From Sharpea porci (GTDB lineage: Bacteria > Bacillota_I > Bacilli_A > Erysipelotrichales > Coprobacillaceae), in contig NZ_VUNM01000021.1 in NCBI RefSeq assembly GCF_009695655.1, forward strand, positions 1-43,741: a DNA stretch of 43,741 bases. The letters run 5' to 3'. Numbering within the stretch: the first letter of the stretch is position 1; each line of letters begins with the position of its first letter. The position numbers were made by a program, and so were the translations under genes. Under the pieces are notes generated by a model. That model was not told where the DNA came from. It saw nothing but the letters and a program-made list of their open reading frames with translations, and made no database searches. Below are positions 21,963 to 43,741 of the stretch, piece by piece.

Positions 21963-21977
21963 AGGGTTAAAAGATGA

Positions 21978-22131
21978 AGATAAAGGCTGCGGTGCATCAG
22001 AGTAGTATGTGGACAAGACATTGGTTGAAGCATATGAAAGGTAATCATCGCCGAAAGAATACCATGGTAATGATATTCTTGGGGATTAATGAAAGACATT
22101 AATCACTCCTTCGTAAGAAGAGGCGTTATCT
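21978..22131 (+). promoter_or_regulatory. Lysine riboswitch (L box) aptamer
   Basis: P1 is AGATAA (21978-21983) with TTATCT (22126-22131). Conserved core blocks appear in family order: GGCTGCGG-type 5' core, ATCAGAGTAGTAT, GAAAGG followed by the TCGCCGAAAG block, TTGGGGATTAAT paired with ATTAATCACTC, and a 3' GAGGCGTTATCT. The spacing matches the five-helix lysine aptamer. A terminator follows at 22145-22176, so lysine would stop transcription of the downstream ABC transporter genes. Confidence 0.93.
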
Positions 22132-22144
22132 GTAAAGCAATCAC

Positions 22145-22201: not shown

Positions 22202-23014
22202 ATGAAAAAGTTAGTCATTATCATGCTGGCATTTGTTTTAACAGGATGCATGACGACAAAGAATACTGAAGACAATTTTGTCGTTGGTATGGAAGCTGCC
22301 TATCAGCCTTTTAACTGGCAAGCTATCAAGAGAGGATCAACAGGTGTATATCTTGATGGTGGTGCTGGTATTGCTGATGGGTATGACGTAGTCATCGCAC
22401 AAAGAATTGCCAAGAAGATTCACAAGAAGCTTGTCATTAAGAAAATAAGCTGGGAAGGCTTGCCTAGTGCCGTGGAGTCTGGTGAAATTGATGCAATTAT
22501 TGCCGGTATGACAGCTAGCCCTGAAAGAGAGAAGGGCATGGATTTCACCACACCTTATTATTCAAGTGACATGGTTATGGTTGTTAGAAAGAATAGTAAA
22601 CAATCTCAGTATTATGACATCGCCCAATTCAAGGGAAGCCGTGTTATGGGACAAAAGAATACCAACTATGATACGATTATCGATCAGATCAAAGGGGTTA
22701 AGCATCAGGTTCCTAAATCAACATATCCTGAACTTGTTATGGCGTTAAGAAGCAAGGATACGGATGGCATAACTGCTGAACTACCTGTTGCTACTGGTAT
22801 TGTTAAGGCCAACAAGGACTTGGCTATTGTAAGATTTAATAAGGGAACGGGTTTTAAGGTTGATACGAGTGTATCAATTGGCATGAAAAATAACAGCCGT
22901 AATACATTGCTGTTTAAGGATGTCCAGAAAGCCTTAGATTCCATTTCACAAGAAGAAAGACAAAAGATTATGGAAGGGGCTGTTAATAGAGCTCCACTCT
23001 ATAATGATCAATAG
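22202..23014 (+). CDS. Amino acid (probably lysine) ABC transporter, substrate-binding lipoprotein
   Basis: A 270-residue periplasmic-binding-type protein with a lipoprotein signal MKKLVIIMLAFVLTGC (Cys16). The mature domain has the SBP family 3 fold: VGMEAAYQPFNW at the start, GYDVVIAQRIAKKI, SGEIDAIIAGMTASPEREKGMDFTTPYY and a later lobe with VMGQKNTNYD. The lysine riboswitch upstream points to lysine as ligand; sequence alone would allow other polar amino acids. It is the first gene of a three-gene operon with permease and ATPase. AAGGATG before ATG 22202 serves as RBS. Confidence 0.93.
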   Translation: MKKLVIIMLAFVLTGCMTTKNTEDNFVVGMEAAYQPFNWQAIKRGSTGVYLDGGAGIADGYDVVIAQRIAKKIHKKLVIKKISWEGLPSAVESGEIDAIIAGMTASPEREKGMDFTTPYYSSDMVMVVRKNSKQSQYYDIAQFKGSRVMGQKNTNYDTIIDQIKGVKHQVPKSTYPELVMALRSKDTDGITAELPVATGIVKANKDLAIVRFNKGTGFKVDTSVSIGMKNNSRNTLLFKDVQKALDSISQEERQKIMEGAVNRAPLYNDQ

Positions 23015-23027
23015 GGGGATAAGTGTT

Positions 23028-23756
23028 ATGAGTATTGATTTTCATTTTGCTTGGCAGACATTAATTGATGGCTGGCCATTATTTGGATATGGTATTGCCA
23101 TGACTTTGACATTTGCGATTGTAGGTACAGTTGCAGGTTTAATCATTGGTTTATTGTTAGGCGCTATTCGTTCGCTTGAGATTGATCCATTGGATTCATC
23201 TTCAATCAAGGCACTCAAGAAGTTTGGCAGAGGGCTGACTTCTTTCTATGTCTGGATTTTTAGAGGAACACCAATGATGGTTCAGGCTGTCTTCCTTTAT
23301 TATTTATTGAAACCCATTTTCCATTGGGATGGTTTGACAGCAGGCTTGATTATTATTTCCATCAATACAGCAGCTTATATGGCTGAAATTGTGCGTTCAG
23401 GCATTCAGGCTATTGACCGTGGGCAATATGAAGGGGCTAAAGCCTTAGGTATGACGAATGGCCAGACACTTTTCAACATTATTTTACCACAGGCTATTAA
23501 AAACAGCTTCCCATCCATTGGCAATCAGCTTATTGTCAATATCAAGGATAGCTGTATGTTGAATGCAATTGCGGTTACTGAACTCTACTTCCAGGCAACA
23601 AGCATTGCTGGTTCAACAATGAAATATACTGAAATCTATATGTTAGTAGCAATTATGTATTTAGCACTTACTACCATTGCAACATTTGTCTTGAATACAA
23701 TTGAAAAGAAGCTCAACAAGACAAATAAAGCGACAACAATGGATGCATGTGCATAG
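23028..23756 (+). CDS. Amino acid (probably lysine) ABC transporter, permease
   Basis: A 242-residue inner-membrane permease of the HisMQ/GlnP type with about five helices. [23 protein letters not shown] starts the family domain, and the EAA loop that docks on the ATPase is [24 protein letters not shown]. The ATG at 23028 follows AGGGGGAT just after the preceding stop; the open frame extends upstream but without an RBS. As a single permease it presumably forms a homodimer. Confidence 0.93.
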
Positions 23757-23767
23757 AGGTAAAGACA

Positions 23768-24508
23768 ATGGAACACGTTATTGAAGTTAAGCATTTAAAG
23801 AAATCTTTTGGTGCACTTGATGTATTAAAAGATGTTGATTTTATTATTGATAAGGGTCAGGTTATTACGATTATTGGCTCTTCTGGATCAGGTAAGAGTA
23901 CGTTACTAAGATGCATGAACTTGCTGGAAATACCAGATGGAGGAGAGATTCTCTATCATGGCGAAGATATTCGTCAACATACTAATATCAATAGCTATCG
24001 TGCTAAGGTTGGCATGGTCTTCCAGAGCTTTAATTTATTTGAAAACAAAACCGTACTGGAAAACTGCATGCTTGCCCAAATGAAAGTTTTGAAAAGAAGT
24101 AAAGACGAAGCGAAAGACAAAGCTTTGAAATATTTAAAACAAGTTGGAATGGAACGCTTTATGAATGCTTCTGTGACAACATTATCAGGTGGTCAGAAAC
24201 AGAGAGTAGCCATCGCCCGTACACTTTGTATGAATCCAGATGTGATTCTCTTTGATGAACCAACCAGTGCCTTGGACCCAGAAATGGTGGGGGATGTCCT
24301 CGATGTCATGAAGAATTTAGCGAAAGAAGGACTGACTATGGCTGTTGTTACGCATGAAATGCAGTTTGCGAAAGAAGTAAGTGATATTGTGCTCTTTATG
24401 GATGCGGGAAGAGTCTGTGAAATGGGTACACCTGATCAGATTTTTAACCATCCTAGCCATGAACGTACAAAGCAATTCCTTTCTCGTTATAATAACGATC
24501 AAGCATAA
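23768..24508 (+). CDS. Amino acid (probably lysine) ABC transporter, ATP-binding protein
   Basis: A 246-residue polar amino acid ABC ATPase. Walker A is GSSGSGKST, the Q-loop lies in [13 protein letters not shown], the signature is LSGGQKQR, and Walker B is [13 protein letters not shown] followed by the switch His in VVTHEM. ATG 23768 follows GAGGT overlapping the permease stop; an upstream ATG at 23747 lies inside the permease gene. It is the last gene of the riboswitch operon, followed by a bidirectional terminator. Confidence 0.96.
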
Positions 24509-38352: not shown

Positions 38353-39018
38353 ATGGAAACAATAAAGAATCTTCAATGTTTTATTCATGGTAAGAAACAA
38401 GCAAAATATTTATTAATACAGCCTATCGATGAACATGACTTAGAAGCCATGGAAGAAGAGATAGAAACAATCAATAAAACGACTAAAGATTATCTTTTAG
38501 TAGGTATATTGGTCAATGACTGGCAAAAAGAGCTTTCACCATGGTTTATGCCTGCTATATTTGGCAATCAGGACTTTACAGGTGGGGCTGATCTATTCTA
38601 TCAAGAAGTCAAAGAAGTTATTAAAGAAGTCAAAGTGCTCTATGCAATGCAAGATGCTAATGTCATTATTGGTGGTTATTCACTTGCTGGACTCTTTGCG
38701 CTTTATGCAGCCTATCAGGACGAATATGATGGGGTTGTGGGGGCTTCGCCAAGTGTCTGGTTCAAAGACTTTTTAAGTTATACACAAACTCATCCAATTC
38801 AAACACAATATGTCTATTTATCACTAGGTGACAAGGAAGAAAAGGCAAGAAATAAGATTATGGCTAGTGTGGGTGATTGCTTAAGAACATATCAATCATA
38901 TCTTCAAAATGAAACCCATTGCGTTCTTGAAATGAATCCTGGCAATCACTTTAAAGATACGGGTATAAGAGTGGGCAAGGGATTTAGCTGGATTATTCAG
39001 AACTTAAATCATGCGTAG
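38353..39018 (+). CDS. Alpha/beta-hydrolase, esterase-like
   Basis: A 221-residue protein. The nucleophile elbow is GGYSLAGLFAL with the catalytic Ser in the middle; ASPSVWF follows as in PF00756/IroE-type esterases, then LGDKEEKA supplying the Asp and GNHFKDTG with the His. Substrate unknown. AGAGGTGAT precedes ATG 38353. The last codons overlap the next gene by 8 bases, so it is cotranscribed with the 2',3'-cyclic phosphodiesterase. Confidence 0.88.
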   Translation: METIKNLQCFIHGKKQAKYLLIQPIDEHDLEAMEEEIETINKTTKDYLLVGILVNDWQKELSPWFMPAIFGNQDFTGGADLFYQEVKEVIKEVKVLYAMQDANVIIGGYSLAGLFALYAAYQDEYDGVVGASPSVWFKDFLSYTQTHPIQTQYVYLSLGDKEEKARNKIMASVGDCLRTYQSYLQNETHCVLEMNPGNHFKDTGIRVGKGFSWIIQNLNHA

Positions 39019-39520
39019 AGTCTATTATGCTTTGACATTCAATCAAGAAGCTACCCACAAAATCATCACTAATGTCAATCGACTTAAAGAACATGCCTTA
39101 CAGATGAAACCCATTCCTGAAAATTCTATTCATATGACAATGGCCTTTTTAGGGGAAGTAGAGGAATCACTGATTGATGAATTGTTGGAAATAAGAGATG
39201 AAATAAGCTTTGAACCTTTTTGTTTCAATCTTGATTATCTTGATAGTTTTCCTGATTGCAATAGTCGCCTTTATTATCTTTCAACAACACATGCTCAAGA
39301 ACTTTATGCTTTACAAAGCACTCTTGTTCAAAAGCTTTATCAACATAAGATTGCCTTTCATGATAAACAGTTCTTGCCCCATGTGACTTTATCACGAAAG
39401 ACCATTTTAAAAGAACCTACTGATTTAATATTACCCATTTCTTGTACTATCACATCATTAGAACTCTTAGAATCCATTCCCTATAAACAAACACGAATAG
39501 GTATTCCTGTAAAAAAATAG
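39011..39520 (+). CDS. thpR: RNA 2',3'-cyclic phosphodiesterase (LigT/ThpR family)
   Basis: A 169-residue 2H phosphoesterase. The two catalytic HxT motifs are His41-Met-Thr43 (SIHMTMAFLG) and His124-Val-Thr126 (FLPHVTLSR), at the usual spacing, and the N-terminal MRRVYYALTF strand is typical. It opens 2',3'-cyclic phosphates on RNA ends. The start overlaps the esterase gene. Confidence 0.94.
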   Translation: MRRVYYALTFNQEATHKIITNVNRLKEHALQMKPIPENSIHMTMAFLGEVEESLIDELLEIRDEISFEPFCFNLDYLDSFPDCNSRLYYLSTTHAQELYALQSTLVQKLYQHKIAFHDKQFLPHVTLSRKTILKEPTDLILPISCTITSLELLESIPYKQTRIGIPVKK

Positions 39521-39537
39521 TGAATGTATGATTTTTA

Positions 39538-39567
39538 TTGTCGTGAGGGGTATCGATTGATTATAAT
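39538..39567 (+). promoter_or_regulatory. Promoter of the structured RNA upstream of the LuxR regulator
   Basis: TTGTCG (39538-39543), 18 bases, TATAAT (39562-39567). Transcription would start near 39574. Confidence 0.65.
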
Positions 39568-39573
39568 AAGGCT

Positions 39574-39708
39574 AGAGGAAGTCATGGGAAATGTCTCCAG
39601 AGACTCACGATTCTTTCCTTTAATTCTTGTTTTCTCATATATAAAAGAATGGGTGGCATTTCTGATTTCTTCTTAGATGACTTTTGGTATCCTTCAGGAT
39701 ACCTTTTT
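39574..39708 (+). ncRNA. Candidate structured leader RNA / riboswitch or sRNA
   Basis: About 135 bases between a good promoter and a perfect terminator. Nested helices are P1 AAGTCAT (39579-39585) / ATGACTT (39677-39683) and P2 GAAATG (39588-39593) / CATTTC (39657-39662). A small hairpin GTCT-CCAG-AGAC lies at 39593-39604. A long arm TCAC-G-ATTCTTT (39605-39616) pairs with AAAGAAT-GG-GTGG (39644-39656). The terminator is GGTATCC-TTCA-GGATACC followed by five Ts, 27 bases before the regulator ATG. I do not recognise the family. Confidence 0.6.
39686..39708 (+). terminator. Rho-independent terminator between the structured RNA and the regulator gene
   Basis: GGTATCC-TTCA-GGATACC 7-bp perfect stem followed by five Ts. 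Confidence 0.92.
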
Positions 39709-39734
39709 GTGTATAATGGGAAAGAGGTGATTTC

Positions 39735-42095
39735 ATGCGCTATATCAAGATACAAAATGTCTATCGTTTATTAAAAGAAGCTGAAGATAACTATGTGCCT
39801 TGTCTTCTTCTCGCTCCAACAGGCTATGGGAAAAGTGCTGCAGTCCATTACTTTTATCGTCGTAAAGCCACTCTTGAACTCAGCGGTCTTCATGGCAAGC
39901 TAGATGCTATGCCGGATATCAATAGTATTAGAGTCGGTACGATTATTATCGATAATATCAGTTTTATTCGTGATGAAGAATCAAAACAATATATTCTCTC
40001 TTTGTTTGATCATCCGGAATTTCATATGATTGTTATTGGGAGGGGGAGAATGCCCCAATGGCTAATGACAAAGCTATTTGATCGAAATTATGTTTTGATT
40101 GGAGAGAAAGCTTTTGTCTTGAATACAAGTCATGTTAAAGCATTCCTAGAAAACTATCACCTGCATTTAAGTGAAGCAGACATCAAGTTGCTGACAAAGG
40201 CAAGCCGTGGCTTTCCGGTGAGCGTCATGGCCATGTGTGGTCATCTGCTTAAAGGTGAAAAGATTCAGGAATTCGCACAAGGATTAGGCTGGGAGGATGT
40301 TTTTAGCTATTTTAAAGAACATGTCTATCGTTATTTACCTCCTGATGTTAGGATGTTTTATTTGAAGATGGGGGTCTTTAAGAAGTTTGATAGCGATATG
40401 GCAAAGGTCATAACGGGATTTGATTATGTGCATAGTATTATTGAATATTCGTTGGATGTTGGGCATTTTGTGACACTTGATGAGCATGGGATTTGGGTGA
40501 TGCGTGATGAATTTGTGAAATTCTTTGACTGGCGTAGAGGTCTCGAGATGACGCCTGAAGATGTTCGTGCGATTTGTATAGCTGGCGCAAAATATTATGA
40601 AGATAAGCAGGAAGATGTTCTTGCAATTAAGTATTATCAGAAAGCACATCAAAGAAATGACATGATTCGTATTTTAAAGAATAATGCGAAAAGACGTCCA
40701 TCGCTTGCTCATTATAAAGAACTTGAACCCTATTATATGAATTTAACTGATCAAGAAGTAAGATCATCATTCTATTTAAATAAAGGCATTTGTCTTGTTC
40801 ATTATTTCTTGTTGAGAAATAATGAAAGTCATTACTGGTATCAAGAACTTATAGGAAATAAAAATGAAATAGATGAATATGAATATCAGATACAGATGGA
40901 TATACTTCAGCTCTATTTACATTTTTCATCACCAAGAACACTTATTGAAAACTTCACACAGCTCTGTTGTGAAAGTCAACACTATCATCTTTCCATTCCA
41001 CCAATCGACTTAACACTCGCAATGCCTTCTCTTATGAATGGCGGTGTAGACTTTAGTACCTATCTAACAGTTGATGATCAAATCTGGCATAACTTATCAT
41101 CATCATTGATTGATTTATATGGAGATGAAGGCAAAGGTTTAATCTTGCTTCTACAAAGTGAAAAAAGAATGATTTGTGATGAGAAACCTCATTATGAAAT
41201 CTTGCGAGACTTATGTGAAGCTTCTGAGCTTGTCAATCATGGCAGACAGCTTGATTTACGCTTTGTGGCAGCAGCATGTATAACACGTATGCATATCTTT
41301 GATGGGCAATATGAAAGTGCAGAAAAATGGTTGAGAACATTTCAGGATAGTCTTGTCGATAAGAAAGATGAACGCTTGAAAATGAATGTTGAAGCTTTTG
41401 CGACTGCACTTAAACTTTATGTCGGTGATGAACAGGCAGCAAGGCATTATCTTAGTATAGCTCCCAATATCCAGGAAGGTCTTTATATGTTGGATAATTA
41501 TCGTTATCTTATAACTATTAAAGCCTATGTAACCATCAATGAATTACAGCTTGCCCTAGACAATATTCACTTTCTTCAATCTTATTACAAACGTAAGAAT
41601 AATATCATCAACACGATCATCCTCCAATTCATAGAGTCCATTATCCTTTATCGATTAGGCAATGACCACTTCAAAGAAGTCTTTCAAGAAGCTTTCCGCA
41701 AAGCTCAAAAATTTCATTATGTCTATTTAATCGCCCAGGAAGGAATAGCAATACTGCCCATTCTTGAAGCATCTTACGATAAATCATTCGATCAAGCGTT
41801 CTATAAACATGTCTTGCAGGAAACAAGAAAAATTGCTGCTTATTATCCTGAAAACCTTTCCTATATACCAGAAAGAGAAATTCATCTCACTAATCGAGAG
41901 ACAGAAATATTGGGAATGTTGACAGCAGGTTTATCAAGTGATGAAATATGTCAAAGATGTAGAATCAGCTATAGTGGACTGAAAAAACATAATCGCAATA
42001 TTTATCGAAAGCTTGGCGTGAAGTCAAGAAGTGAAGCGGAACGGATGGCTAAACGACTGCATTTATTGGCGAAGGATGCACATCCGTGGGATTGA
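39735..42095 (+). CDS. MalT-like (LAL-type) LuxR-family transcriptional activator
   Basis: A 786-residue multidomain regulator. The N-terminal STAND-type NTPase has Walker A APTGYGKSAA (27-36) and a Walker-B-like TIIIDNISF (about 69-77). A winged-helix region follows, then about 400 residues of helical repeats, and finally a LuxR-type HTH (718-780: LTNRETEILGMLTAGLSSDEI...YRKLGVKSRSEA). Such proteins bind an inducer through the repeat region and activate catabolic or adaptive genes. GAGGTGATTTC precedes the ATG. A structured RNA with a terminator sits upstream, so readthrough may control it. Confidence 0.92.
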   Translation: MRYIKIQNVYRLLKEAEDNYVPCLLLAPTGYGKSAAVHYFYRRKATLELSGLHGKLDAMPDINSIRVGTIIIDNISFIRDEESKQYILSLFDHPEFHMIVIGRGRMPQWLMTKLFDRNYVLIGEKAFVLNTSHVKAFLENYHLHLSEADIKLLTKASRGFPVSVMAMCGHLLKGEKIQEFAQGLGWEDVFSYFKEHVYRYLPPDVRMFYLKMGVFKKFDSDMAKVITGFDYVHSIIEYSLDVGHFVTLDEHGIWVMRDEFVKFFDWRRGLEMTPEDVRAICIAGAKYYEDKQEDVLAIKYYQKAHQRNDMIRILKNNAKRRPSLAHYKELEPYYMNLTDQEVRSSFYLNKGICLVHYFLLRNNESHYWYQELIGNKNEIDEYEYQIQMDILQLYLHFSSPRTLIENFTQLCCESQHYHLSIPPIDLTLAMPSLMNGGVDFSTYLTVDDQIWHNLSSSLIDLYGDEGKGLILLLQSEKRMICDEKPHYEILRDLCEASELVNHGRQLDLRFVAAACITRMHIFDGQYESAEKWLRTFQDSLVDKKDERLKMNVEAFATALKLYVGDEQAARHYLSIAPNIQEGLYMLDNYRYLITIKAYVTINELQLALDNIHFLQSYYKRKNNIINTIILQFIESIILYRLGNDHFKEVFQEAFRKAQKFHYVYLIAQEGIAILPILEASYDKSFDQAFYKHVLQETRKIAAYYPENLSYIPEREIHLTNRETEILGMLTAGLSSDEICQRCRISYSGLKKHNRNIYRKLGVKSRSEAERMAKRLHLLAKDAHPWD

Positions 42096-42164
42096 TGAAA
42101 AAAAGCAGGCATGGTAGCCTTAAGGGTACTATCATATCTCTTTAAAATAACTATAATGAGAAGC

Positions 42165-42301
42165 GTCAGTAGAGCACTGACTGATGTTTATTCATCATCG
42201 ATAAGCGATGCTTATCATCCCTTTTACAATATGACTCAAAAAATATCCCAATACATGCATTTGAGCCATAAAGAACCGATTTTCCCACTCGGTTCTTTTT
42301 T
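42165..42301 (+). ncRNA. Candidate structured small RNA with terminator
   Basis: Hairpins in order: GTCAGT-AGAGC-ACTGAC (42165-42181), TGATG-TTTATT-CATCA (42182-42197) and GATAAGC-GAT-GCTTATC (42200-42216). A longer-range CTCAAA / TTTGAG pairing follows. The terminator is AAGAACCGA / TCGGTTCTT (42271-42297) with a T-run. CATCG-ATAAG-CGATG (42196-42210) is an alternative fold overlapping the second and third hairpins. Candidate only; no covariance was tested. Confidence 0.5.
42271..42301 (+). terminator. Rho-independent terminator
   Basis: AAGAACCGA / TCGGTTCTT 9-bp stem with a 9-base loop and seven Ts. Confidence 0.92.
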
Positions 42302-42387: not shown

Positions 42388-42972
42388 ATGAGAAAAAATA
42401 AAGGAAGTGTACTGACAAAGATTATTATTATTTTAATACTTGTCATTGTCATAGCACTAGGTATACGTTATGTCTATAATCAAATCAGTACCCCAGATAC
42501 CTCAGCTATACAGGAGTCTTTTGGAGACATTCAAGAACTTGCAACAGAACAATATGAATATACAATTGCTGATAAATATGAAGATAAACAGGAACTCTTT
42601 GGCATTAAGATTCCTTTTACAACAGAATCCTTTGTCATCAAATTTAGTGGAACCATTAAAGCAGGTGTAAATCTAGAAAAGGCCAAAGTGACTGCATCAG
42701 GCAAGCATGTAACTGTCACATTGCCACAAGTCACAACCCTTTCCCATACTACCAGCAAAGTTACTTATCTTGATCGACATGCCAATATACTTAATCCATC
42801 CAACCCTCAAAGCTCAACAGAACTCGTTGATAAATTAAAGGAAAAAGAAGAAAAAAGAGCGATAAAAAAAGGCCTTTATACAAAGGCAGAAAAGAAACTT
42901 GAAAGTGTTATCACTGAAGATGTGAAGAAGGTAGCAGGTGATGATATAGGTGTAAAAGTTGTTTTTCAATAG
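42388..42972 (+). CDS. DUF4230 family membrane-anchored protein
   Basis: A 194-residue protein. A basic N terminus and one membrane helix (about 9-29) are followed by an extracellular domain with the DUF4230 layout: ELATEQYEYTIADKYEDK, FTTESFVIKFSGTIKAGVNL and KVTASGKHVTVTLP. Long Lys/Glu-rich helices close the protein. Function unknown. AGGAGG (42376-42381) supports ATG 42388; an upstream TTG at 42382 is rejected. Confidence 0.88.
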   Translation: MRKNKGSVLTKIIIILILVIVIALGIRYVYNQISTPDTSAIQESFGDIQELATEQYEYTIADKYEDKQELFGIKIPFTTESFVIKFSGTIKAGVNLEKAKVTASGKHVTVTLPQVTTLSHTTSKVTYLDRHANILNPSNPQSSTELVDKLKEKEEKRAIKKGLYTKAEKKLESVITEDVKKVAGDDIGVKVVFQ

Positions 42973-43369: not shown

Positions 43370-43429
43370 TTCATAGTAAGGTCTTTCAAACAACAGTTTT
43401 TTTCAAAGTAATACATCAAGAAATTTAAA

Positions 43430-43506
43430 AAGGTTGCCGAAGCAACCTTAGTAAAGTCATCTAAATGACACCAGCAGAGCTGGCATTTAAGCATAAGCTT
43501 TATTTT
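43430..43506 (+). ncRNA. Array of four consecutive hairpins
   Basis: AAGGTTGC-CGAA-GCAACCTT (43430-43449), GTCAT-CTAA-ATGAC (43456-43469), CCAGC-AGA-GCTGG (43471-43483) and AAGC-ATAA-GCTT (43489-43500), then TATTTT. They are spaced 1 to 6 bases apart, downstream of the promoter at 43361-43369. A stable small RNA or complex terminator is likely; the family is unknown. Confidence 0.5.
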
Positions 43507-43741
43507 AACTCGTTGTGTTATTTTGGACTGAACAAAACATATTGTTTTGAACAATTAAAGAATAATCTAAAATAGGGAGGTTGTCAAGTTCATGGCTAAA
43601 AATAAGGATAGAAGTGTGAGTCAAACATGATATTGTCTTTATGTACCAAGAAAGAAAGTGTCCTGAATGATAGATCTGAAAAAAGCATGTTACAATAATC
43701 TCCTAACTATTCTATAAGACTTGGAGGTATTGCATGAGAAA
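43507..43741 (+). other. Window end: mini-ORF and start of a truncated gene
   Basis: A 12-codon open frame (MAKNKDRSVSQT, 43592-43630) follows AGGGAGG, possibly a decayed gene start. TACAAT near 43691 and GGAGG (43723-43727) precede ATG 43734, which begins a gene cut by the window edge after two codons. Nothing can be said of its product. Confidence 0.4.

Follow-up and report, generated by a model that had tools for sequence, protein, structure and literature searches.

Does a structured RNA that ends just upstream of a regulator gene serve as the leader of that gene, or is it an RNA in its own right? The question is raised by an element at positions 39574–39708 of the 43,741-nt stretch of DNA analysed here (hereafter, the window), which comes from a species of Sharpea (Coprobacillaceae) with a 2.5-Mb genome. 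The element lies between the gene for an RNA 2',3'-cyclic phosphodiesterase of the LigT/ThpR family (39011–39520, plus strand) and a 786-aa open reading frame with a LuxR-type HTH that encodes a MalT-like regulator (39735–42095). The preliminary description proposed either an attenuator of this regulator or an independent small RNA (sRNA). The second half of that proposal is the better supported, the RNA being conserved in a sister species that lacks the regulator, whereas the first half finds no antiterminator to rest on. Since the RNA persists in a genome without that gene, it is probably a free-standing sRNA rather than a switch for the regulator. With fair confidence, and judging from sequence, we read the element as an independently transcribed, intrinsically terminated sRNA, about 135 nt long and met so far in Sharpea alone.

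The element begins with a promoter-like site, TTGTCG-N18-TATAAT (39538–39567, plus strand), that matches the consensus at 10 of 12 positions and predicts a transcription start at about 39574. The transcript would fold into a rod of two stacked helices. The outer helix pairs AGAGGAAGUC (39574–39583) with GAUUUCUUCU (39664–39673), and the inner helix pairs GAAAUGUC (39588–39595) with GGCAUUUC (39655–39662). Within the apical loop lies a pyrimidine-rich strand, UUCUUUCCUUUAAUUCUUGUUUUCUCAU (39611–39638), the candidate functional part of the RNA. An intrinsic terminator, GGTATCC-TTCA-GGATACC followed by T5 (39686–39708), with a 7-bp GC-containing stem, ends the element 26 bases before the ATG of the regulator gene at 39735; all these parts are on the plus strand.

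In the window sequence, the terminator stretch alone folds far better than its shuffles (z −4.2; none of 200 as good). The whole element (−36.4 kcal/mol) reaches z −1.9, a fold equalled by 8 of 200 shuffles, and the rod without the terminator is moderately better than shuffled sequence (z −1.8). Promoter-like and terminator-like matches within 1.5 kb occur at the level of shuffled sequence; the weight of the element comes from its conservation in the sister species and not from motif counts. The rod would be weak evidence if the window sequence stood alone; the comparison gives it weight.

A BLAST search with positions 39530–39740 yielded a single real relative (E 1e-26), in S. azabuensis DSM 18934 (G001:C26:9719–9865), the sole other Sharpea genome compared, and a covariance model built on the window copy alone recovered the same copy at 62.6 bits, with the match running through the terminator. 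According to the covariance model, each of the two Sharpea genomes carries one copy. In S. azabuensis, the RNA occupies the syntenic position and keeps its promoter, its loop strand, its terminator and the two helices of the rod; the gene order common to the two species is esterase, LigT-like gene, RNA. In both species, the RNA and the LigT-like gene are syntenic; in the window, the RNA starts 54 bases past the LigT-like stop codon. What follows differs: in S. azabuensis, the gene of a DUF4230 protein (42388–42972 in the window, plus strand) comes directly next.

Conservation is concentrated in the parts named above. In a hand-checked alignment, the rod strands are identical at 29 of 30 positions, the 28-nt loop core at 28 of 28, and the terminator stem with its T tract at 18 of 19, as against 23 of 66 in the remainder of the transcript; Fisher p-values for these classes are optimistic because the classes were partly chosen after the alignment was seen. 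Both promoter hexamers are identical in the two species, as are both strands of the inner helix. In the outer helix, AGGAAG of the 5' strand is identical and has the same partner strand in the fold of the homologue itself; the 3' strand is shorter there (UUCCUUCUU), with pairing kept. The terminator stem is retained; one of its U-A pairs has become U-G, and its loop differs. Folded separately, the S. azabuensis copy gives the same rod, equalled by 1 of 200 shuffles (z −3.2), together with the same terminator; the entire homologue reaches z −2.6. Thus, the promoter and terminator that the preliminary description saw are borne out, whereas its four interlocking helices stand in part: the homologue shares the outer helix, the inner helix and the terminator but not the two small hairpins within the loop. 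Between these two copies, the only sequences available, no base pair is changed on both sides, so the conservation is one of sequence.

Beyond Sharpea, neither BLAST nor covariance models detected the RNA among 60 relatives and 43 family members, and searches of viral and genome collections returned S. azabuensis itself only. The best match outside the genus (G022) was rejected; it falls within a BglG-type regulator gene, antisense to it, and has no counterpart of the inner helix. Rfam holds no family for the element, either at the gathering threshold or at E up to 10, where only chance snoRNA matches with E above 4 appear, in agreement with the initial impression that it belongs to no known riboswitch class. 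Elsewhere in the window, RF00168 matches 21973–22136 at 62.6 bits, a lysine riboswitch that precedes genes for a family 3 solute-binding protein (22202–23014) and an ABC transporter ATPase (23747–24508), together a predicted lysine-regulated operon for amino-acid uptake.

The segment that S. azabuensis lacks (39709–42294, plus strand) comprises the MalT-like regulator gene together with its own downstream terminator and is flanked by two TTTTTGT tracts, one after the RNA terminator and one after that of the regulator, which mark the breakpoint. Either an insertion that brought the regulator into the window species or a deletion between these tracts in S. azabuensis would fit the sequences. As the RNA stays where the regulator is absent, the regulator is not needed to explain it, and a structured RNA located before a gene need not be the leader of that gene. 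If, however, S. azabuensis lost the regulator recently, the conservation could date from the time of its presence.

The regulator itself lacks close relatives, within its family as well as in the phylum. Over its full length it fits MalT best, with a score that falls far short of the equivalog cut-off, and searches of S. azabuensis, the other relatives and a 392-genome sample of the phylum found no regulator at useful similarity, only matches to the HTH domain. The nearest full-length relatives, 21–24% identical, come from megaplasmids of Enterococcus raffinosus and from a fecal scaffold that is labelled 'Bacteriophage sp.' but unverified. The closest of these matches to the MalT/LAL-type regulator, at 24% identity, is to the unverified fecal phage scaffold, MT835693.

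With regard to how the sRNA might work, the promoter-like site and intrinsic terminator are conserved as a unit, and the layout (promoter-like site, two stacked helices, long apical loop, strong terminator) is the same in both species whatever gene follows. Transcription would start near 39574 and stop near 39708, and the rod would present the pyrimidine-rich strand in single-stranded form, so that this strand could reach a partner in trans, whether an mRNA by base pairing or a protein by direct binding. The MalT-like gene would then be expressed through leakage of the terminator or from a weak promoter of its own, not under ligand-controlled attenuation. Right after the T tract of the terminator, at 39712–39717, there is a perfect TATAAT with no −35 element, absent from S. 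azabuensis, which may provide this weak promoter.

Among the alternatives, the one that survives best, although we regard it as unlikely, is that the RNA belongs to the MalT-like regulator as its leader and works as a riboswitch or attenuator, in which a ligand or the translation of a micro-ORF would lift termination. The arrangement is suggestive inasmuch as just 26 bases, with no strong separate promoter among them, lie between the end of the terminator and the ATG; the rod, moreover, has to form as transcription proceeds and could be remodelled on the way, and the S. azabuensis RNA could be a relic if the gene was deleted between the TTTTTGT tracts. A leader, however, is expected to be conserved together with the gene it regulates, and here the RNA, promoter and terminator are all kept in a species without the regulator gene; nor was a relative of the RNA found beside the distant LuxR/MalT homologues examined, or an Rfam riboswitch at the element. 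Folding points the same way. The terminator forms with a pair probability of about 0.99 in both species, neither of which offers a consistent alternative fold as an antiterminator, and forcing the 5' arm of the terminator elsewhere costs about 8 kcal/mol; the element, therefore, reads as a terminated RNA. When the 5' half is removed, as a translating ribosome might do, the terminator of the window RNA remains intact, and in the S. azabuensis RNA it is replaced by a longer hairpin that involves the same arms. A possible 10-codon micro-ORF (39591–39623, plus strand; MSPETHDSFL), preceded by the SD-like AGAGGAAG, can be read in the window; its frame exists in S. azabuensis (MSRLYLISFL), where all five middle codons differ. 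Given these codon differences and the persistence of the window terminator after 5' removal, we rejected it as a leader peptide, and the frame is probably incidental. Altogether, the attenuator or riboswitch reading is disfavoured.

A little less probable still is that the upstream esterase-LigT operon ends here, the element being its 3' structure with terminator and the promoter-like site having arisen by chance. The 54-base distance from the LigT-like stop and the shared synteny of both in the two species agree with this, as does the observation that shuffled sequence contains promoter-like sites at least as often. Still, the −35 and −10 hexamers are identical in both species, and neither a loop strand invariant over 28 nt nor a conserved rod of 100 nt would be required for termination alone.

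We assign a low likelihood to a composite reading, in which a new, genus-specific class of structured RNA, with an invariant pyrimidine-rich loop that would bind protein or mRNA in trans, has in the window species additionally become joined to the gene of a MalT-like activator, which would be controlled by terminator readthrough.

The DUF4230 gene, directly downstream in S. azabuensis, could instead be the one regulated, the RNA being its leader or an adjacent antisense-type regulator. This appears improbable, despite the fact that, in both species, the start of the gene contains AUGAGAAAA, the complement of UUUUCUCAU in the invariant loop, and that this start is the best of the 31 translation starts in the window for pairing with the loop. 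The advantage is lost in larger samples of pairing energies, which covered 367 translation starts in the window species and 372 in S. azabuensis (about 450 kb of each genome): the DUF4230 start ranks 13th and 154th, respectively, with the whole loop, and 52nd and 116th with the loop core, and was dropped as a candidate target. In the window species, furthermore, 2.6 kb and another terminator separate the gene from the RNA. The same samples contain no outstanding mRNA target for loop pairing among the roughly 370 starts per genome, and the translation start of the regulator ranks 27th. Against translation starts in general, 36 of 40 dinucleotide shuffles of the loop core pair at least as well as the core itself, which leaves a mechanism directed at Shine-Dalgarno sequences unsupported; the loop was accordingly rejected as an anti-Shine-Dalgarno seed.

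That the element is a diverged housekeeping RNA (6S RNA, or the tracrRNA of the nearby Cas9 locus) is very improbable, notwithstanding its rod shape and the type II CRISPR locus 4 kb downstream, since it has no Rfam match, 6S RNA (RF00013) matches other loci on other contigs in both genomes with E below 1e-6, and the CRISPR repeat matches an anti-repeat beside cas9 (about 43513–43540), which puts the tracrRNA there on the minus strand, inspection of 39574–39708 having shown no anti-repeat. The 6S matches, at G000:C32:4014–4173 in the window species (40.9 bits) and at G001:C3:6693–6852 in S. azabuensis (42.3 bits), are just below the Rfam gathering threshold of 46.4 but are probable 6S RNAs of Sharpea. 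The CRISPR locus (window 43420–43741) has a tracrRNA-like region at 43420–43545 on the minus strand, including the repeat-like anti-repeat at 43513–43540. At the contig end, the start of cas9 is broken after about 9 codons by other DNA, and contig C5 (G000:C5:1–155) carries a full-length cas9 ORF with foreign DNA before it. At the break, exactly 29 nt are common to the two cas9 contigs, the pattern that a mobile element with a long target-site duplication would produce; the element is perhaps IS1202-like. In S. azabuensis, cas9 is intact and accompanied by a CRISPR array with a 66-nt period.

Candidate sRNAs that are undescribed and confined to one lineage are common. For this lineage, a narrow search of the literature turned up no paper on small or structured RNAs. 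If our reading holds, these gut and rumen bacteria gain an undescribed sRNA, and the case cautions that a structured RNA ending just 5' of a gene is not necessarily the leader of that gene. Among known systems, it shares a rod-like fold with 6S RNA (RF00013), from which it differs in having one large apical loop in place of the central bubble. It resembles riboswitch and attenuator leaders, such as the lysine riboswitch (RF00168) of this window, in being a structured RNA with a terminator shortly 5' of a gene, but has no known aptamer or antiterminator, and its downstream gene is not conserved with it. Trans-acting sRNAs encoded between genes in Bacillota, such as RsaE/RoxS, have a sigma70-type promoter, a length of about 100–150 nt, an exposed pyrimidine-rich strand and an intrinsic terminator. 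The Sharpea RNA has no sequence or Rfam match to RoxS/RsaE, its strand is CU-rich without their C-rich motifs, and its loop shows no bias to Shine-Dalgarno pairing; what it has in common with these sRNAs is a promoter of its own, a similar length, a hairpin with a pyrimidine-rich strand, a terminator, and conservation apart from the neighbouring genes.
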